A DNA stretch of 64,000 bases from Zhouia spongiae (GCF_022760175.1 NZ_CP094326.1:2840804-2904803), one strand, 5' to 3'; shown: positions 25,749-50,220, counted from the first letter of the stretch. Notes: generated from the sequence alone by a model not told the origin. Translations and numbers: made by a program.

Positions 25749-25836
25749 CCGTATCCAGAATCGCCCACTGCCGACTACCGACTATGAATCGCTTACTGTT
25801 TCACCCCATTACCTATATCAGCGTAACAACATCACA

Positions 25837-25906
25837 CCATAACATGATAACAAGATAACTTCGTCACTTAATAACATCATCACTCGATAACAACGTTAAA
25901 TAATAT
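25837..25906. repeat. Degenerate octamer array (ATAAC-NNN type)
   Basis: Variants such as ATAACATG, ATAACAAG and ATAACATC recur with a spacing of about eight or nine bases. They are preceded by a short run of CACTGCCGACTAC-type repeats at about 25,765-25,785. Similar arrays recur in most large intergenic regions between 25.8 and 50.2 kb. Confidence 0.6.
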
Positions 25907-26090
25907 CCTGCCCTAGGCTGTTGACTGGAGCGTAAAGAAAATGTACAGTGTACATTTTTAGAGAACAGGTCAGACTGCCGCGCTGGGATGTATTTACTAT
26001 TCGTGAGGAGCGTAAAAACCAGACGCTGCTTGAGCCTCGTAGAAAACGAGGCGAGTTGCCATTATGAGTTCTTTTTGTTTAGGTTATAAA
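25907..26090. repeat. Structured repeat copy I (CCTGCCCTAGG block plus variable hairpins)
   Basis: This begins with the CCTGCCCTAGGCTGT block shared with 30543 and, inverted, 49453. It contains a perfect dyad AAAATGTACA-G-TGTACATTTT at 25938-25958 and the core GCTGCTTGAG-CCTCGT-loop-ACGAGG-CGAGTT at 26025-26057. The core stem differs from that of other copies but still pairs. Confidence 0.6.
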
Positions 26091-26191
26091 TAGCTGAGTC
26101 TGCCTGATTAAATTGTTAATGATCGAAGGTTTTCAAGAAATAGCTGTGGCTCAAGTGGAAGTGCGTCTGCGTAGCTGGAAAAGCATGGGGC

Positions 26192-26335
26192 GGAGCGTTA
26201 AAAACAGTCTATCAGACTGTTTTAGTGAACGAGCCAGCCGGCGCATGGAGAGACAGCAGCGGTTTTGCGGCAGCAAAAATTTCCTATAAACCTTCTTGAT
26301 TTTTTGGTTCGTTTTGCATCAAGGCAAAATGAACA
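26192..26335. repeat. Structured repeat module with variable hairpin and 3' stem-loop
   Basis: GGAGCGTTAA is followed by a perfect hairpin AAAACAGTC / GACTGTTTT (26201-26223) and TTAGTGAAC. The same frame with a different hairpin occurs at 25929-25970. It ends in a terminator-like stem GTTCGTTTTGC-ATCAAG-GCAAAATGAAC (about 26,306-26,333), the same 3' stem as in the other repeat copies. Confidence 0.55.
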
Positions 26336-26353
26336 TAAATAACACCATAACAG

Positions 26354-26712
26354 TATAAACTATAGCTAGGTAATAAAAAAGACTGTTTGTTAGCAATTGT
26401 CGAGAGGGTAAATCATATTCCTAACCCGCCATAGTCCTTTACAGGCGGGCACCTCATAAGTGAGAAATGTGTTAAGAATTAACCGCTGTTTGAGTCACGC
26501 CTTAGCGTGGGGAGTTCGTTTAATTTAACATTCGAGCTTCCATGAGGTCGCCGAAAAGGCAAGGCTTGATTTTTTGGTTCGTTTTGCATCAAGAACTGCG
26601 CAGCACATCATGAGAACCTTTAAAAAACAATAGACAAGGTATCGAATACAAATGCTTAGCATTCATGAGTTCCTTATCAAACAATAGAGGTCTCACGAAT
26701 AAAATGAACATA
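26354..26712. repeat. Composite structured repeat, copy A, with 3' extension
   Basis: Modules in order: leader TATAAACTATAGCTAGG; CCCGCC / GGCGGG hairpin; ACCTCAT; ATTAA-CCG; core GCTGTTTGAG-TCACGC-CTTA-GCGTGG-GGAGTT (26485-26517); CGTTTAAT; ATGAGGT; then the TTTTTTGGTTCG 3' element. The outer blocks pair across the core, so the unit folds as a rod. A further conserved block (GAACTGCGCAGCACATCATG onwards) extends to about 26,712. No coding frame explains it. Confidence 0.65.
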
Positions 26713-26803
26713 AATAACACCATCATAATTAAAACCAATATACTTCTGAAACAAATTTAAAACGTTAAATAAAAAACGTTAGTTCAAAATTTCCACATAT
26801 AAA

Positions 26804-26982
26804 AACCCGCCATAGTCCTTTACAGGCGGGCACCTCATAAGTGAGAAATGTGTTAAGAATTAAACGCTGTTTGAGTCACGCTCTAGCGTGGGGAGTTCGT
26901 TTAATTTAACATTCGAGCTTCCATGAGGTCGTCGAAAAGGCAAGGCTTGATTTTTTGGTTCGTTTTGCATCAAGGCAAAATG
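26804..26982. repeat. Composite structured repeat, copy B (5'-truncated)
   Basis: Nearly identical to copy A from the CCCGCC / GGCGGG hairpin onwards, but lacking the TATAAAC leader; the core loop reads CACGC-TCTA-GCGTG. It runs straight into the perfect octamer array at 26983. An open frame of 118 codons across this region on the minus strand is an artefact of the repeats. Confidence 0.65.
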
Positions 26983-27078
26983 AACACCATAACACCATAA
27001 CACCATAACACCATAACACCATAACACCATAACACCATAACACCATAACACCATAACACCATAACACCATAACACCAT
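26983..27078. repeat. Twelve perfect tandem copies of the octamer AACACCAT
   Basis: A 96-base pure octamer array. Elsewhere in the window the same unit occurs only in degenerate form. Pure arrays of this kind change length by slippage, so copy number probably varies between isolates. Confidence 0.9.
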
Positions 27079-27082
27079 AACA

Positions 27083-27395
27083 GTATAAACTATAGCCAGG
27101 TAATATAAAAGACTGTCGTCTTTATGAAGCCATGACAAAGGAGTGCTGTGGCAATTTTTCAAAATAAAATTTCCAATGCCGGGGAGATTGTCCGTGAGAT
27201 GTTTCTTGTCGGGCAAACCGTACTACACGAGGTTTCGTTAGCGATTACGATCCCTTACGTTCATTGCGAATCCACTTTGCCGGCTGTGGTAATCTCAATA
27301 GGTTAGCACTTGATTATGCACAATAATCACCAATAATTAAAACTCACTTAACCATTACCCCTAGACTACTCCCACTACCCACTGCTCACTGCCAA
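27083..27395. repeat. Second long repeat family, copy K1
   Basis: This starts with the same TATAAACTATAGCCAGG leader as the composite repeats but switches after GACTGT to a different body (GTCTTTATGAAGCCATGACA, CATTGCGAATCCACTTTGCC, GGTAATCTCAATAGG) and ends in CCACTGCTCACTGCC-type decamers. A near-identical copy lies at 33051. The CATTGCGA...AATCTC motif resembles widespread bacterial intergenic palindromes. Confidence 0.65.
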
Positions 27396-27408
27396 CTGTT
27401 TCACCCCA

Positions 27409-27582
27409 TCAACCAATCCATTTCCTTAGTTTCTTCAATAATATGGAAACTACAAAACTAACACTAGCACCTATGATAGCAGTTATCACTGTTTCCCATA
27501 GTGCTTCAGACCCAAATAAAGGCAGTACGCTAAAAAGCGTACCGCCGATAATACCATATCGGGTATTAACATCAAATTGCAT
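27409..27582 (-). CDS. Small membrane protein, holin-like (57 residues)
   Basis: An open frame from an ATG at 27582 to a TGA at 27409 encodes 57 residues. It has a hydrophobic segment (about residues 10-23, GIIGGTLFSVLPLF), a polar turn, a second hydrophobic segment (about 29-48, VITAIIGASVSFVVSILL) and a basic tail KKLRKWIG. Its start overlaps the stop of the upstream 89-residue membrane protein by about ten bases, typical of translational coupling. Two helices plus a basic tail is a small-holin-like layout, but the family is not recognised. Confidence rests on the overlap and membrane pattern. Confidence 0.6.
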   Translation of the reverse strand: MQFDVNTRYGIIGGTLFSVLPLFGSEALWETVITAIIGASVSFVVSILLKKLRKWIG

Positions 27583-27841
27583 GCTCCCAGATACTTTTAA
27601 CAGGAGGTATATTCAGATATTCCGGATCCTCATTGTTTTTATCAACGGTAAGCTGACTTACGGAAGTCAGCACACCCCCTGCTACGGTCAGATAACCGGC
27701 AATTGTCGCAATAGTTGCAGGAATGGCAATAGGTGAAGCAACAATCGTTCCTCCAACAGTTGCTAATACCAGTCCGATGGTTCTTAAAACCTTAAAAAAC
27801 TTTGGTGTGGGCGCTTTCGCCCTGGCTATAATAGTATTCAT
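27572..27841 (-). CDS. Small membrane protein, holin-like (89 residues)
   Basis: An 89-residue protein: a basic N-terminus (MNTIIARAKAPTPKFFKVLR), two adjacent hydrophobic stretches (about residues 21-36 and 40-60, rich in Ala, Gly, Ile and Thr), then a polar tail. I do not recognise a named family, though similar small proteins occur beside phage-like lysis genes. It lies 292 bases downstream of the DUF5675 gene on the same strand and overlaps the start of the 57-residue protein. Those 292 bases hold a decayed copy of the repeat 3' extension around 28,050-28,145 and no gene. Confidence 0.65.
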   Translation of the reverse strand: MNTIIARAKAPTPKFFKVLRTIGLVLATVGGTIVASPIAIPATIATIAGYLTVAGGVLTSVSQLTVDKNNEDPEYLNIPPVKSIWEHAI

Positions 27842-28133
27842 TTTTACTTTTTTTAATTAAACATTTTTTAGAGAGAATCTCATTCGTTCGATCACTTCTG
27901 AAATGAAAATATATTTTTCATTCTAGGGACAAAGCACAGACACTCATAACGAATTATAATTTATACTCAATTGGTTTCGAGATTAGCTTGTTCTGGGTTT
28001 CAGTCGATGGGCTCAATCTGACATTCTGTAACGAACAAGCTATAGAAAATCAAAAAACAGGCTTGACTTTTAGATGCTTTTGCGTCAAGAACTGGGTAGC
28101 ACATCATGAGAACCTGGAAAACAATAGGCAACC

Positions 28134-28559
28134 TCACGAATACAAAGGAATAGTTGAAAAATCTTTCGAAACAATCCTCAAAAACAAACTGTCTTTAAAC
28201 TTCCTCGACCGCTCGTAATACAATAACAACCGGTCAAGAGCAATTCTTGAAAAAACACCCCTTGCAATACCTGTCATCTGGGTTACAGGAGCCAGGCAAC
28301 CTTTTAGTTCTTCCAAAGCATCATTCGCCGGATGTATTAGAATGGCATCCCTGTCAGGTACATTACATACCTGTAAATGAGGACCGAAACGATGCGTTGT
28401 TCGCAATTGTAAAGGATATAATCCATCAGGTATACAAGATATATTTCTGATGTTGTCTTTCCAGGGCAACTCGATCATAAAACAGACGAAGTTCCCGTTA
28501 AAGTAGAGAGCACCTTGGGTGCCCTCTTTAAAATGAGATCGTAATAAAATCAGCTCCAT
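28134..28559 (-). CDS. DUF5675 family protein (phage-endolysin-like)
   Basis: A 141-residue soluble protein matching the DUF5675 pattern: MELILLRSHFKEGTQGALYF at the start, FMIELPWKDN, CIPDGLYPLQLRTTHRFG, then HLQVCNVPDRDAILIHPAND. Members occur in phages, phage-derived secretion structures and as stand-alone genes, with a fold related to L,D-transpeptidase/endolysin-like proteins; activity is not established. Its ATG overlaps the TAA of the preceding gene, so both are on one transcript. Together with the two small membrane proteins it looks like a reduced lysis-type set, but no tail, capsid or integrase genes are present. Confidence 0.8.
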   Translation of the reverse strand: MELILLRSHFKEGTQGALYFNGNFVCFMIELPWKDNIRNISCIPDGLYPLQLRTTHRFGPHLQVCNVPDRDAILIHPANDALEELKGCLAPVTQMTGIARGVFSRIALDRLLLYYERSRKFKDSLFLRIVSKDFSTIPLYS

Positions 28560-29314
28560 TATGGTGTGTCGATTCCAATAACATTAAGCGCATTATACGC
28601 CCCATTTTTCAGCGGATACATTTGTCCGTTCACTTCCTGGTAAAAACTGATACCCATAACTTGTAATAGGGGCAAGGTACTATTAGCCGTCACAGAAGCT
28701 ATTAGATCCAGGGCTGCTATTTCCTCGGCGTTCCACGGTAGAATACCGCTCTCACTACCATCAAAAACAAAAGCATTGTTTTCAAAGTCCAGTTCTGACA
28801 TCGCTGCTACCAGTTTAAAGTGGGTTGTACCCTCCGGAGCTTCAATACCAATGTTAGGAGTAAAGGCAGGTAGTTGTATTTGAAGACTTCCTGCTGCTCT
28901 GTCTGTACTAACGGTGTACGGAGTATAGAGGGAGGTATCCAGTTTCCCGTTGATATTAAAATCGAAACCTTTTAACTTACCTAACTCTCCATTTTGTAAC
29001 GCCCTTAATCCACGTTCGTTGGTGGTATCTGTTTTTATGATATCCATTAAGATCTTTAGTAGTCTGCTGGTAACCCTACCGTCTTTAGCCTCCCGCATAA
29101 GGGTACGGAGAGCCATACGTATAAGTTTACCACCCTTTCCGGCTCTGCCAAATTCAGAACCGTTTTCACGGGTACGCTGAAAAGCAGGATCACTCTCAAT
29201 ACGTTTTTTATCGATTCCTCCTTTTTCACGAGCCACGTAGCCATCGGCGGTTTTATAAAAGGTAATATCCCCTAGGGTTCCTTTTAGTTTAATAATTCCT
29301 TTTTGTTTTGCCAT
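28559..29314 (-). CDS. Conserved hypothetical protein, first gene of the DUF5675 set
   Basis: A 251-residue protein. The basic N-terminal region (MAKQKGIIKLKGTLGDITFY, then REKGGIDKKRIESDPAFQRT and GRAGKGGKLIRMALRTLM) looks nucleic-acid or structural-assembly related, while the C-terminal half is acidic and beta-rich (SLQIQLPAFTPNIGIEAPEG, TLPLLQVMGISFYQEVNGQM). Proteins with this opening occur in flavobacteria beside DUF5675 genes, but I know no function. It ends in a TAATG overlap with DUF5675. The AT-rich leader carries a perfect CTACGAG dyad. Confidence 0.65.
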   Translation of the reverse strand: MAKQKGIIKLKGTLGDITFYKTADGYVAREKGGIDKKRIESDPAFQRTRENGSEFGRAGKGGKLIRMALRTLMREAKDGRVTSRLLKILMDIIKTDTTNERGLRALQNGELGKLKGFDFNINGKLDTSLYTPYTVSTDRAAGSLQIQLPAFTPNIGIEAPEGTTHFKLVAAMSELDFENNAFVFDGSESGILPWNAEEIAALDLIASVTANSTLPLLQVMGISFYQEVNGQMYPLKNGAYNALNVIGIDTP

Positions 29315-29340
29315 GATTTAAATTTTTGATGAATGAACTC

Positions 29341-29359
29341 CTACGAGTCTCTCTCGTAG
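29341..29359. promoter_or_regulatory. Perfect dyad CTACGAG-N5-CTCGTAG in the leader of the DUF5675 operon
   Basis: A seven-base perfect inverted repeat with a five-base spacer lies 27 bases upstream of the 251-residue gene's start. It could be an operator or a leader hairpin blocking translation. The rest of 29,360-29,620 is AT-rich with nothing else recognisable. Confidence 0.45.
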
Positions 29360-29620
29360 CGATTGAAAATGAATGTATTACTGCAGTACTTTTTCATTTA
29401 TGACTCGAACTTATAATAAAGAATATTCAATAAAAAAAGTAAGAAACCATAATCGTAGTATTTAGCCGTTTATGTATGAATTAGCCGATGGGTATATTAT
29501 TATATAGAATGTGTTAAAAGGTTTCCGGAGGGTGGAGATTGGTCGATTTACATGCTGATATTTAGGCTTTTACAGTTGGTTTCCTTTATATTTAAAGCAT
29601 GGTTAAAGTATGGATAGAGT

Positions 29621-29821
29621 ATGAGCAAGTATAAAAGAGTATGTATTTATCCAAAAGATATCCAACGTATCACAGGGAAAAGCATCAGAAATTCAAGAAC
29701 AATTTACGGACGTATAAAAGAATATTTTGAAAAAAAACCACATCAGGTCGTTACAGTAACTGAATTTGCTATTTATATGGGGATAAAAATAGATGTCGTT
29801 AATCAATATATATTAGACTAA
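29621..29821 (+). CDS. Small basic protein, probable DNA-binding (66 residues)
   Basis: A 66-residue basic protein (MSKYKRVCIYPKDIQRITGK, RNSRTIYGRIKEYFEKK) with a predicted helix-turn-helix-like end (VTVTEFAIYMGIKIDVVNQY). Proteins of this size and composition are common in flavobacterial genomes, often without annotated function. It is transcribed divergently from the DUF5675 set. The leader contains TATGGATAGAGTATGAG, which resembles a sequence near 11,335. Function unknown. Confidence 0.6.
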   Translation: MSKYKRVCIYPKDIQRITGKSIRNSRTIYGRIKEYFEKKPHQVVTVTEFAIYMGIKIDVVNQYILD

Positions 29822-29885
29822 AGTTACCCCATAACCCCATAACAGCGTAACAACATCACTCCATAACATGATAACTCGATAACAA

Positions 29886-30134
29886 TATAAACTGTAGTTA
29901 GATAATATAAAAGACTGTTTGTTAGCAATTGTCGAGAGGGTAAATCATACTCCAAACCCGCCATAGTCCTTTACAGGCGGGCACCTCATAAGTGAGAAAT
30001 GTGTTAAGAATTAAACGCTGTTTGAGTCACGCCTTAGCGTGGGGAGTTCGTTTAATTTAACATTCGAGCTTCCATGAGGTCGTCGAAAAGGCAAGGCTTG
30101 ATTTTTTGGTTCGTTTTGCATCAAGGCAAAATGA
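29886..30134. repeat. Composite structured repeat, copy C
   Basis: A complete unit: leader, CCCGCC / GGCGGG hairpin, rod with core at 30017-30050, and the TTTTTTGGTTCG 3' element ending in GCAAAATGAA. Octamer arrays flank it on both sides. Copy D follows about 300 bases later in the same orientation. Confidence 0.7.
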
Positions 30135-30186
30135 AGATCATAACAACGTAACACCATAACACCATAATATGATAACTCGATAACAG

Positions 30187-30485
30187 TATAAACTATAGCT
30201 AGGTAATAAAAAAACTGTTTGTTAGCAATTGTCGAGAGGGTAAATCATATTCCAAACCCGCCATAGTCCTTTACAGACGGGCACCTCATAAGTGAGAAAT
30301 GTGTTAAGAATTAAACGCTGTTTGAGTCACGCCTTAGCGTGGGGAGTTCGTTTAATTTAACATTCGAGCTTCCATGAGGTCGTCGAAAAGGCAAGGCTTG
30401 ATTTTTTGGTTCGTTTTGCATCAAGAACTGCGCAGCACATCATGAGAACCTTTAAAAAACAATAGACAAGGTATCGAATACAAAA
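30187..30485. repeat. Composite structured repeat, copy D, with 3' extension
   Basis: Nearly identical to copy C (core at 30317-30350). One arm of the GC hairpin is altered to GACGGG. It continues into the GAACTGCGCAGCACATCATG extension seen after copy A. Confidence 0.7.
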
Positions 30486-30542
30486 GAATAAAACTCCATA
30501 ACATCATAACAGTGTAACACCATATCTCGATAACAAATAAAA

Positions 30543-30724
30543 TCCTGCCCTAGGCTGTGGCAGGCTGGGACCCACTAATTGATTATTACGTAAAATTAGG
30601 TGCTGCTTGAGCCTCGTAGAAAACGAGGCGAGTTCAGCTAATTTAGTAATGGAAATAATAGTGGGTAGCCGAACAGCTAAGGCTAGCGTTTTTTGGTTCT
30701 TTTTTAGGCAATGTAAAAAAGAAT
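30543..30724. repeat. Structured repeat copy G (diverged stems)
   Basis: This shares the CCTGCCCTAGGCTGT start, the GCTGCTTGAG...GAGTT core (30602-30636) and GCCGAACAGCTAAGGCTAG with the inverted copy at 49282-49453. Its stems differ but pair: CCCACTA / TAGTGGG, AAATTAG / CTAATTT and CCTCGT / ACGAGG. The 3' stem is TTCTTTTTTA / TAAAAAAGAA. Confidence 0.65.
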
Positions 30725-30764
30725 AAGGACTAATAAGAAGAAATAGGTCTATGGTATGCATTAA

Positions 30765-30945
30765 GGCTTGATTCTGCGGTTTAGTTTATCCTAAGCGACA
30801 GTCGAAGGGTTTTTTATCAAGAACTGCGAAGCACATCATGAGAACCTTTAAAAAACAATAGACAAGGTATCGAATACAAATGCTTAGCATTCATGAGTCT
30901 CTTATCAAACAATAGAGGTCTCACGAATAAAATGAACACGATAAC
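30765..30945. repeat. Repeat 3' module with inserted GTCGAAG-type palindrome
   Basis: AGGCTTGATTCT...GGTTTAGTTTATCCT then GCGACAGTCGAAGGG interrupts the usual 3' element before ATCAAGAACTGCG. The same hybrid occurs at about 49,862-49,980. The following block (GCACATCATGAGAACC, CAATAGACAAGGTATCGAAT, AATAGAGGTCTCACGAATA) matches the extension of copy A. The remainder of 29,822-31,065 is octamer arrays; no gene is seen there. Confidence 0.55.
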
Positions 30946-31065
30946 ATCATCACTCGATAACAACGTAACACCATAACAGTATAACAACAACATCAAAAAA
31001 AAACAGATAGTTTCATTCAATTTTATAGCTTTGCTAATCGTTTTAGGTTTTATAAAAAAGCAAGC

Positions 31066-32412
31066 ATGAAATACAAACACATTGTACGAAGTCTATTATT
31101 AACCCTACCTACATTTTTATTAGCACAAGAAACAGAATTCAGCGGTCGTATAACACTCGGTGGTTATGCCTCTGTACGCGATTCTTTGCCTTTTTGGATG
31201 GCAAACAATACTTATGGCCGTATGGAAGAAGATACCCGTGTTATGGGACTGGCCGAAGTAAAACTACAACATCGTTTAGGTGTGCAGTCGTTTTTAGAAG
31301 CAGGAACAGGACTGTTGTTTAACGATGCCGCAGCTCCGGTATTAAGAGGCGATAGCTGGTATCTGCAATACCAGAACAAATGGTTTGGTGTCATTGGTGG
31401 GAAAAAACAACGCCCGACTACGTATGGCGGGCTATCAACTTCTGGAGAGAGTATACTGTGGTCTGATAATGCCAGGCCGTTACCGGGGGTATATGCTTAT
31501 ACTACAAAGCCGATAGCGTTAGGGAAGTCTGAAAAGTTTTTAATCGATGCCTATTGGGGAGAGTATCTTATGGATGATGATCGCTATGTCGATAATGCCC
31601 GCGTACATAGTAAAGGCCTCACTTTTATCTATCGGTTTAATCCAAGAACGGAATTATCGATAGGATTGGAACATGTGGCACAATGGGCAGGGACTAGTAC
31701 CACAACAGGGAAGCAACCGTCAGGTTTTAAAGATTATCTAAAAATAATTACCGGGTCTTCTGGAGGAGAAGGTGCAGTAGGTGGAGATCAGATCAATGCT
31801 TTAGGTAATTCTATAGGTTCATACCGGGTACGATTTAAAAAGCAGTACGATCATTTTAATTTGGAGCTCTTCTGGAATTCGGTATTTGAAGACCGTTCCG
31901 GGAGAGAGCTTAATAACCTGCCTGATGGACGATACGGGGTGTACCTGGCAAAAAAACAACCTACAGGTTTGGTACATCATATGCTTTACGAGTTCTATTA
32001 TATGAAAAGCCATAGCGACGGAGCGCCATTCTTTAGTACCGGCGATGATTATTTCAATAATTATGTTTATCAATCAGGCTGGACATACCATCAGCATACC
32101 ATCGGTTCGCCGTTCTTTTTACCATATTCTAATGGAGTAGGCATTGCTAACAATCGTTTTATGGCACACCATTTAGGAATAGGAGGGAACGTTAAGGAAT
32201 TGCCATACCGATTGTTGCTTAGCTATAACAGAAATTATGGCAGACGACCACGGGGTACTATTATGCAAGAAGGTAAGAATGTATTCTCCAGCCGTTTAGA
32301 TCTAAAACTTCCGATACATTTTGCCGAGCTAAAGGTGCTTATGGGAGCTGATTTCGGAGAGACTTTCAAGCCTAAATATGCTGCAGGACTACAATTAGTA
32401 AAGGAGTTTTAG
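31066..32412 (+). CDS. wzi: Capsule assembly Wzi family outer membrane protein
   Basis: A 448-residue protein with a signal peptide (residues 1-20, ending LLAQE) and a beta-barrel built of alternating strands to the terminal LQLVKEF. Family features include FWMANNTYGRMEEDTRVMGL near residue 43, a GGKKQRPTTYGGLSTSGESI region, and FFLPYSNGVGIANNRFMAHH near residue 347. Wzi proteins hold capsular polysaccharide at the outer membrane surface. No other capsule gene is adjacent, but a WecA-type initiating transferase lies 1.1 kb downstream and a polysaccharide operon opens the window. It sits alone between two clusters of composite repeats. Confidence 0.85.
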   Translation: MKYKHIVRSLLLTLPTFLLAQETEFSGRITLGGYASVRDSLPFWMANNTYGRMEEDTRVMGLAEVKLQHRLGVQSFLEAGTGLLFNDAAAPVLRGDSWYLQYQNKWFGVIGGKKQRPTTYGGLSTSGESILWSDNARPLPGVYAYTTKPIALGKSEKFLIDAYWGEYLMDDDRYVDNARVHSKGLTFIYRFNPRTELSIGLEHVAQWAGTSTTTGKQPSGFKDYLKIITGSSGGEGAVGGDQINALGNSIGSYRVRFKKQYDHFNLELFWNSVFEDRSGRELNNLPDGRYGVYLAKKQPTGLVHHMLYEFYYMKSHSDGAPFFSTGDDYFNNYVYQSGWTYHQHTIGSPFFLPYSNGVGIANNRFMAHHLGIGGNVKELPYRLLLSYNRNYGRRPRGTIMQEGKNVFSSRLDLKLPIHFAELKVLMGADFGETFKPKYAAGLQLVKEF

Positions 32413-32467
32413 GAACCTCTTTTAGATCATAACAGCGTAACACCATAACAACATAACTCGATAACAG

Positions 32468-32715
32468 TATAAACTATAGCTAGGTAATAAAAAAGACTGT
32501 TTGTTAGCAATTGTCGAGAGGGTAAATCATATTCCAAACCCGCCATAGTCCTTTATAGGCGGGCACCTCATAAGTGAGAGATGTGTTAAGAATTAAACGC
32601 TGTTTGAGTCACGCCTTAGCGTGGGGAGTTCGTTTAATTTAACATTCGAGCTTCCATGAGGTCGTCGAAAAGGCAAGGCTTGATTTTTTGGTTCGTTTTG
32701 CATCAAGGCAAAATG
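32468..32715. repeat. Composite structured repeat, copy E
   Basis: A complete unit directly downstream of wzi, in the same orientation, core at 32599-32630. It differs from copy C at few positions (for example CTTTATAGGCGGG). It may also provide the transcription end for wzi through its 3' stem-loop. Confidence 0.7.
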
Positions 32716-32769
32716 AAGATCATAACACCATAACACCATAACAACGTAACATCATAACTCGATAACAGT

Positions 32770-33018
32770 GTAAACTATAGCTAGGTAATAAAAAAGACTG
32801 TTTGTTAGCAATTGTCGAGAGGGTAAATCATATTCCAAACCCGCTATAGTCCTTTACAGGCGGGCACCTCATAAGTGAGAAATGTGTTAAGAATTAAACG
32901 CTGTTTGGGTCACGCCCTAGCGTGGGGAGTTCGTTTAATTTAACATTCGAGCTTCCATGAGGTCGTCGAAAAGGCAAGGCTTGATTTTTTGGTTCGTTTT
33001 GCATCAAGGCAAAATGAA
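32770..33018. repeat. Composite structured repeat, copy F
   Basis: A unit about 301 bases after copy E. Its core reads GCTGTTTGGG-TCACGC-CCTA-GCGTGG, so changes fall in the unpaired loop and flank while the stem is kept. It is followed by a degenerate octamer array and then copy K2. Confidence 0.7.
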
Positions 33019-33050
33019 GATCATAACAACGTAACATCATAACTCGATAA

Positions 33051-33330
33051 CAGTGTAAACTATAGCCAGGTAATAAAAAAGACTGTCGTCTTTATGAAGC
33101 CATGACAAAGGAGTCGCTGTGACAATTTTTCAAAATAAAATTTCCAATGCCGGGGAGATTGCCCGTGAGATGTTTTTTATCGGGCAAGCCGTACTACACG
33201 AAGTTTCGTTCGCGATTACGATCCTTTTCGTTCATTGCGAATCCACTTTGCCGGCTGTGGTAATCTCAATAGGTTAGCACTTGATTATGCACAGTAACCA
33301 CCAATAATTAAAACTCACTTAACCATTACC
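33051..33330. repeat. Second long repeat family, copy K2
   Basis: Near-identical to K1 at 27083 over about 260 bases, with small indels and substitutions. As at K1, it follows composite repeats and an octamer array and is followed by decamer repeats, so the whole block order is duplicated. Confidence 0.65.
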
Positions 33331-33437
33331 CTAGACTACTGCCACTGCCACTGCTCACTGCCTACTGCTGACTGCCCACTGCCCACTGCTGACTGCCTAC
33401 TGTCCATTGCTGACTGCCTACTGTCCATTGCTCTCTA
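33331..33437. repeat. Degenerate decamer array (CTGCCNACTG type)
   Basis: Units such as CTGCCTACTG, CTGCTGACTG and CTGTCCATTG follow each other for about 100 bases. Shorter runs occur at about 25,765, 27,370, 34,930 and 50,100, usually just before an octamer array. Confidence 0.7.
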
Positions 33438-33539
33438 AATAACCCTTAAAATTCCCAGAATTTTGAAGACCAGTTCAATGACTTATAAAATATCTCCTTA
33501 CATTTGTTGCAACTAAACTAACTTAACTAAAGTAATTAT

Positions 33540-49245: not shown

Positions 49246-49292
49246 AAGTAAACTACCTCGTGGGCTTGCCCCGAGGTAGTTTACTTTTTTTT
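49246..49292 (+). terminator. Strong terminator after the metallophosphoesterase gene
   Basis: AGTAAACTACCTCG and CGAGGTAGTTTACT form a 14-base perfect stem around a short GC-rich loop, followed by a run of eight T. The T-run also forms part of the 3' stem of the inverted structured repeat H beside it. Confidence 0.85.
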
Positions 49293-49453
49293 CATTGATA
49301 AAAAAGTAACAAAAAAAATCTAGCCTTAGCTGTTCGGCCATCCGCTAGTATTTCGAACACTAAATTATCTGAACTCGGCACTTTGCCTCAAACAGCAGAT
49401 AATTTTACGTGTTCTGCTAAAAGCGAGTCCCAGCCTGCCACAGCCTAGGGCAG
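49282..49453 (-). repeat. Structured repeat copy H (inverted orientation)
   Basis: Read on the minus strand it has the same conserved blocks as copy G: CCTGCCCTAGGCTGTGGCAG, the core GCTGTTTGAG-GGCA-AAG-TGCC-GAGTT (49396 to 49372), GCCGAACAGCTAAGGCTAG and a 3' stem GTTACTTTTTT / AAAAAAAAGTAAAC. The stems AAATTATCT / AGATAATTT, AACAC / GTGTT and GGCA / TGCC differ from copy G yet pair. Confidence 0.65.
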
Positions 49454-49602
49454 GTGTTTTTTAATAGATATGATTCTAGAATTGAGAAGATAGATAAAAG
49501 GTAAAAGACAAGTATGAATACTAACGATTCCTTTTATAGAGACTGCCATACTTCGACTGCCGCTCAATACAGGCTAGGCTTTTGCAAAGCTCATAGTGAA
49601 CC

Positions 49603-49650
49603 ACAACTCGATAACATCATAACAAGATAACAGGATAACAACTAAAATCA
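49603..49650. repeat. Degenerate octamer array
   Basis: AACTCGATAACATCATAACAAG-type units lie between repeat H and repeat J. A GTCGAAG-type palindrome on the other strand (near 49,555) and nothing coding is seen around it. Confidence 0.5.
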
Positions 49651-49720
49651 ATAAATACTTCTGAAACAAGTTTAAAGCGTGAAATAAAAAACGTTAGTTC
49701 AAAATTTCCACATATAAAAC

Positions 49721-49980
49721 CCCGCCCTCCGTAATTTCATCGGGGCTCCATAGCTGAAATCTACGTAAAGAACAAAAAGCTGTTTAAGCTCCGATGGTAA
49801 ACGGAGTGAGTTCTTTTTGTTTAGTAGATGAAGCGTAATGGGGTGATAGAAATTAATGCAGGCTTGATTCTTTGGTTTAGTTTATCCTGAACGACAGTCG
49901 GGGTTTTGCATCAAGAACTGCGAAGCATATCATGAGTCCCTTATCAAACAATAGAGGTCTCACGAATAAAATGAACATAA
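49721..49980. repeat. Structured repeat copy J with hybrid 3' module
   Basis: CCCCG / CGGGG hairpin, then outer stem AACAAAAAG / CTTTTTGTT around the core GCTGTTTAAG-CTCCG-loop-CGGAG-TGAGTT (49779-49812), then the hybrid 3' module with CCTGAACGACAGTCG and ATCAAGAACTGCG. It is a further paralogue with its own pairing stems. Confidence 0.6.
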
Positions 49981-50220
49981 AACACCATCACATCATAACT
50001 CGATTACAATGTAACACTATAACTAGGCAATATAAAAGACTGTTTGTTAAAGCAATAGCTGAGCGGGTAAATCATATTCCGACCTCGCCATAGGCTATTG
50101 CCGACTGCCAACTGCTTCACACCGTAACTCAATCACAACCTAACATCATAACTCGATAACTAGATAACTCGATAACACCATCTCTTGATAACACCATCAC
50201 TTGATAACCCCATCACCAAT
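49981..50220. repeat. Octamer and decamer arrays before the adhesin gene
   Basis: Octamer-like runs (49,981-50,030 and 50,116-50,215) flank a TATAAAAGACTGTTTGTT leader fragment and a GCCGACTGCCAACTGCTTC decamer run. The remaining 50,221-50,623 is plain AT-rich sequence that must hold the adhesin promoter; I see no gene. Confidence 0.55.

Follow-up and report, generated by a model that had tools for sequence, protein, structure and literature searches.

Bacterial miniature inverted-repeat transposable elements (MITEs) with long stem-loops include ERIC/IRU, Correia/NEMIS, RUP and CIR, each of which is listed for one genus or a group of relatives (PMC2229807). Here we describe a repeat family in a 64,000-nucleotide stretch of the Zhouia spongiae genome (NZ_CP094326.1:2840804-2904803; hereafter the window, with positions counted from its first letter) that is like these elements in being about 100-200 bp long, intergenic and non-coding, with a long stem-loop and, in some lineages, inverted ends and target duplications. 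Unlike them, it has a core that occurs in two phyla, stems that have been rewritten while the loops were kept, and vehicles with unrelated ends. The repeat is of the MITE/ERIC-like kind, and is unusual in its core conserved across phyla and in its several vehicles; mobile repeats usually diverge past recognition outside a genus. We consider it rather probable that the family consists of non-autonomous, MITE-like mobile DNA repeats and that a putative protein reads their folded DNA strand.

Other known systems share single features with the family. Like REP/REPIN repeats (RAYT/TnpA-REP), the copies are repeated intergenic palindromes, but the rod into which they fold is far longer, with internal loops, and the RAYT-type Y1 transposase (PF01797) is absent from the window's genome. 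Pneumococcal BOX elements are modular, non-coding and structured, and can grow in tandem; the likeness to these is one of description, and they come from a different phylum.

Ten structured copies, one of them damaged, are present within the window at the positions listed by an earlier, sequence-only reading, which had recognized GCTGYTTRAG followed by GAGTT around a hairpin. Allowing one mismatch or fewer, GCTGYTTRAG matches at 25 places in the window against 10.4 expected (0/100 shuffles reached 25), and the ten copies are the structured subset of these matches. The copies, with the parts of the subtype B copy that serves as our anatomy reference, are:

25992-26103, plus strand: damaged copy; core hairpin at 26025-26057, outer stems gone
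26424-26595, plus strand: copy, subtype A (TCACGC); a module of about 110-130 nt (AACTGCGCAGCACATCATGAG...) splits the 3' hairpin
26805-26985, plus strand: copy, subtype A; 3' hairpin intact
28060-28140, plus strand: remnant of an element's 3' end (GGCTTGACTTTTAGATGCTTTTGCGTCAAGAACTGGGTAGCACATCATGAG), adjoining the DUF5675 gene
29956-30135, plus strand: copy, subtype A
30256-30426, plus strand: copy, subtype A; 3' hairpin split by the same module as in the copy at 26424-26595
30543-30724, plus strand: copy, subtype B (CCTCG); anatomy reference
30571-30576, plus strand: 5' arm of helix H1 in copy B (CCCACT); partner AGTGGG near 30661-30666
30594-30602, plus strand: 5' arm of helix H3 in copy B; H3 is the family's most regular helix
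30602-30634, plus strand: conserved internal-loop motif of copy B, GCTGCTTGAG...GAGTT, surrounding the apical hairpin CCTCGTAGAAAACGAGG
30689-30724, plus strand: T-run and 3' hairpin of copy B (TTTTTTGGTTCTTTTTTA...TAAAAAAGAA)
32538-32717, plus strand: copy, subtype A
32839-33018, plus strand: copy, subtype A
49276-49455, minus strand: copy, subtype C (GGCA/TGCC), inverted
49724-49865, plus strand: copy, subtype D (CTCCG/CGGAG)

The stems that distinguish the subtypes (TCACGC/GCGTGG, CCTCGT/ACGAGG, CTCCG/CGGAG and GGCA/TGCC) pair as had been proposed, as do the outer stems. That the copies are structured holds with one reservation, the copy at 26025, which scores 27.7 bits with covariance model R2 and in which good pairing is limited to the inner hairpin.

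The conserved core, CGTTAARAA / GCTGTTTGAG...GAGTTC / TTTTAGC, is set around variable stems. RNA and DNA folding agree on a single rod-shaped imperfect hairpin, in which the outer helix, H1, H2, H3 and the GCTGYTTRAG...GAGTT motif with its variable apical hairpin succeed one another, followed by a T-run and an A/T-rich hairpin. The outer helix forms between the 5' hairpin's loop and the stretch preceding CTAAGGC, and its subtypes are GCTGT/ACAGC, GGTTT/AAACC, CCTTT/AAAGG and AATTTC/GAAATT. The RNA folds are stable (z -2.9 to -4.9), and a Desulfobacterales copy folded as single-stranded DNA reaches -48.9 kcal/mol (z -8.4).

The structure is under constraint. In an alignment of eight copies from the one genome, 94% of cells are paired and 18 of the 26 pairs have changed on both sides, with a covariation score of 0.585 versus 0.201 in shuffles; 0/500 shuffles reach it, and shifting the partner by 1-3 columns abolishes the covariation. 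The selection for structure that had been proposed from the sequence is thereby borne out, and the larger alignment that had been set as its test agrees: among 79 distinct flavobacterial rows, in a structural alignment that was fitted to the structure and is biased towards it, two-sided changes occur in 26/26 pairs and 93% of cells are paired, with shuffles far below. In the core alignment across both phyla, H3 is 95.5% paired. The 3' part opens with CTTGAN and the T-run, which have an exact complement within the next 54 nt in 57 of the 63 such copies, allowing a pairing that crosses the 3' hairpin. We rejected a real pseudoknot here and read the crossing stems as alternative pairings, because no nucleotides remain to cross stem 1. 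Given that the stems have been rewritten repeatedly while pairing and loops were kept in two phyla, we infer that some factor reads the fold.

The covariance-model search that the sequence-only reading had suggested extended the family well beyond the window. Model R1, built from the eight-copy alignment, finds 20 copies in the 4.04-Mb Z. spongiae genome, with the damaged copy at 26025 on top of these; 13/20 lie at 2.834-2.891 Mb, within the window or immediately ahead of it, and the rest at 1.37, 3.09, 3.32 and 3.88 Mb. Matches were found in 40/249 genomes of a Flavobacteriaceae sample, 18/296 of a Bacteroidota sample (an undercount, as the filters were strict) and 14/148 of a Desulfobacterota sample. 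An exact pattern scan of GTDB genomes yielded at least 120 stretches; among the matches listed, about two thirds belong to Bacteroidota and their neighbours and about one third to Desulfobacterales and related metagenome-assembled genomes (MAGs), the carriers including Flavobacterium, Tenacibaculum, Mesonia, Sphingobacterium, Bacteroides, Draconibacterium, Breznakibacter and others, as well as Melioribacteraceae. Contamination may explain the single matches in one Alkaliphilus and one gammaproteobacterial MAG. An upstream CGTnAR motif lying outside the search pattern accompanies 73/91 Bacteroidota-side and 36/37 Desulfobacterota-side matches, versus 2.4% by chance, and H3 pairs in 82/91 and 37/37, respectively; in five viral-contig matches lacking the motif, H3 is unpaired. 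Because this motif is present and H3 pairs, the homology of the core between Bacteroidota and Desulfobacterota, as judged from sequence comparison, is independent of the search pattern. Annotated phage and plasmid collections held no records of the repeat. Comparison with Rfam 15 at gathering and permissive thresholds, also proposed in the earlier reading, returned no matching family, HEARO being included among the models. The repeat is undescribed in the literature searched, which consisted of open-licence papers alone and provides weak evidence of novelty. The covariance models render the family searchable.

Beyond what had been expected from the window, the two-phylum family travels in at least three different transposon-like vehicles, and in three lineages the repeats transpose as DNA and carry both inverted ends and target duplications. 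The elements are short (<600 bp), non-coding and multi-copy. In Desulfobacterales the whole element is an end-to-end hairpin of about 189 bp with inverted ends GATGNNNTCGTAAAAAG and 6-bp target duplications, exact in 14/28 cases versus 3.2% expected; more than 80 end matches occur in one 3-Mb MAG, and no autonomous partner with the same ends was found in Desulfobacterales. In Breznakibacter xylanolyticus (G535) the core lies within MITEs of 314-544 bp with terminal inverted repeats (GGCTCTATG...ATAGAGCC), flanked by 8-bp direct repeats that are exact in 18/28 cases and match with at most one mismatch in 24/28, versus 5.6% by shuffled pairing. In a third lineage, the flavobacterium G250, three copies have about 400 bp in common, bounded by the inverted MITE ends GGATCA...AAAAGTTGTGTG, and two of the three have 8-bp direct repeats (TTAAAAGA and TTTAAAAT). 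These ends are similar to those of a 1417-bp ISL3 insertion sequence, of which the window's genome has five full copies, and the 8-bp duplications are a further likeness to ISL3 elements and derived MITEs; unlike the repeats, the ISL3 element of the window's genome does not carry the core. An ISL3 transposase is found in the window's genome and as a remnant in G250. We rejected ISL3 as a general partner, as no ISL3 transposase occurs in B. xylanolyticus or the Desulfobacterales genome G536, and IS1595 as the mover in B. xylanolyticus, where its transposase is present but the ends differ. One flavobacterial genome (G102) carries several near-identical tyrosine recombinases of 304 aa, scattered over the genome.

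Whether RNA or single-stranded DNA is the structured molecule had been left open by the sequence-only reading. The scarcity of G-U pairs, the absence of a promoter motif and the evidence of transposition incline us to the view that selection acts on a DNA hairpin; the mixed orientation of the copies leans the same way. G-U pairs are tolerated and common in structured RNA. In H1-H3, G-U cells number 37 versus 80 mismatched cells (9 versus 23 in H3 alone), whereas the acceptor and T stems of tRNAs from the same sequences have 31 G-U versus 10 mismatched (Fisher P about 1e-6 for H1-H3 and 6e-5 for H3), a contrast tempered by a control of 41 tRNAs and by the presence of decayed copies in the alignments. 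When H3 was extracted independently, 8 G-U cells stood against 29 mismatched ones. The G-U proportion resembles that of plain decay of Watson-Crick pairs. The TAnnTTTG promoter motif occurs in 2/122 upstream 60-nt stretches, with no excess over elsewhere, and no promoter is conserved at a fixed distance before the element. Covariation by itself is no proof of RNA, and the pairing pattern here points to DNA.

We therefore favour mobile DNA repeats, and propose that the rod-shaped imperfect hairpin might form from a single DNA strand, for example in replication, in transfer or as a cruciform. A putative protein would bind the folded strand at the internal loops CGTTAARAA/TTTTAGC and GCTGTTTGAG/GAGTTC and would help the repeat to persist or spread; the existence of such a reader, its action on DNA and its aid to spread are all inferred. 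The movers would differ by lineage, with ISL3-like ends in one genome. In the window's genome the repeats also increase in number locally, by duplication in tandem. Bare flavobacterial copies often stand in tandem arrays, whose units measure about 300-400 bp in Z. spongiae and 213 bp in Flavobacterium sp. 14A. Finding the factor that reads the fold would account for many intergenic repeats of flavobacterial and Desulfobacterales genomes.

Several observations weigh against this explanation. Target duplications are not in excess around bare flavobacterial copies, among them those of the window, so that movement in the window's genome is not explained by a transposase, and terminal inverted repeats were not seen at these copies. 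No known protein binds the loops. A replication-strand bias, which might be expected of a lagging-strand mechanism, was not seen, the copies of the window's genome holding one direction over both replichores. The 3' crossing stems and the T-run give the element an RNA-like look, and the gene upstream is on the same strand in 47/70 Bacteroidota places, a mild link to transcription.

It is possible, and we put this forward tentatively, that the core is itself a structural module, of folded single-stranded DNA or RNA, recognized by a putative, widely conserved protein, and that, as a hairpin that parasitizes transposable elements or travels with them as a passenger, it made its way into at least three unrelated transposon vehicles in the two phyla.

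We think it unlikely that transposable elements are here transporting a structured non-coding RNA that works in trans or serves as an element of mRNA processing or stability. ERIC and NEMIS offer precedents, having been proposed as processing or stability elements in mRNA (PMC2229807). The RNA explanation is at its best with the T-run and 3' hairpin and with copies that share one direction along a run of genes, as several do in an operon-like run of G098, and it draws further on the stable rod with conserved internal loops, the strong covariation and the same-strand upstream genes. It is opposed by G-U pairs rarer than mismatches, by the lack of a conserved promoter and of an Rfam match, and by the variable orientation of copies relative to neighbouring genes, which includes antisense and convergent places. 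In Bacteroidota convergent gaps are commoner than divergent ones (23 vs 8); the Desulfobacterales copies show neither this nor the same-strand trend.

It is improbable that the structure has arisen without selection, through template switching that copies one arm onto the other; this would keep quasi-palindromes perfect and make a single step look like compensatory change. The scarcity of G-U intermediates and the abundance of Watson-Crick double changes fit such a process, but the mismatched internal loops persist uncorrected in two phyla and the variable stems hold their length and register.

Integron attC sites are also imperfect DNA hairpins, recognized by unpaired bases rather than stem sequence, and integron cassettes are not known to make target duplications. 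An integron-like system, with the element as the folded recombination site of gene cassettes, is suggested by G477, in which six near-identical, same-orientation elements separate HigBA-like toxin-antitoxin, Fic and ATPase genes and two ATPase units are 95% identical from element to element, but we regard it as very improbable: the integrase (TIGR02249) falls below cut-off in 12/12 Bacteroidota genomes examined and exceeds it only in the Desulfobacterales MAGs G536 and G538, with no element within 2-3 kb around those genes, while Desulfobacterales copies bear target duplications, inter-element genes in G098 are core sulfur and methionine genes, and elements lie at differing places around one conserved module in G182 and the window. 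Alignments by eye, with no systematic search, showed no pair of attC R boxes (RYYYAAC/GTTRRRY); CGTTAARAA faces TTTAG, not TTAAC. The integrase genes above the curated cut-off are on G536 C70, C160 and C299 and G538 C28. In the G477 array (G477:C2, L263 4193-13464), which has a cassette-like look, elements alternate with HigBA-like, Fic, DUF4143 and duplicated DUF234 ATPase genes, and short tandem repeats precede several of them.

The copies are intergenic: in a de-duplicated set, 0/111 judged places (31 Desulfobacterota-side, 70 Bacteroidota and 10 Breznakibacter) are inside an open frame, and a rougher table flagged two G103 copies inside a called frame. Neighbours include capsule and polysaccharide genes and integrative-element genes. 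Clustering of open reading frames near the elements, as a search for a conserved neighbour protein, gave unrelated genes of these and similar kinds and nothing else; the earlier remark that no protein-coding partner is obvious in the window stands. The span 25907-33018 assigned to the family does contain the repeats, and it also holds 8-mer spacer repeats and two genes:

28134-28559: DUF5675 protein gene
31066-32412: Wzi-like capsule protein gene

The small-gene module with DUF5675 is common to the window and G182, where it contains full elements; in the window the 3' remnant at 28060-28140 alone remains beside it.

The 8-mer degenerate spacer repeats (ATAACNNN, e.g. ACACCATA) occupy the gaps between elements at 25820-33070 and 49600-50200, and ATAAC motifs number 57 in 7.8 kb of this spacer-repeat region, versus about 11 expected from the window's first 25.7 kb. 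A second small module, AACTGCGNAGCACATCATGAGAACC...GAATA, lies inside the 3' hairpin of some copies (26595-26710, 30425-30540, 30830-30940 and 49900-49970) and recurs in further genomes (L027, L062, L078). Outside the hairpin, two arrays each have a direct repeat of 216 nt (95%) after their last element (27108-27360 and 33080-33331), and a simple repeat, CACTGCCCACTGCTGACTGCC, is located downstream of the array at 33350-33450.

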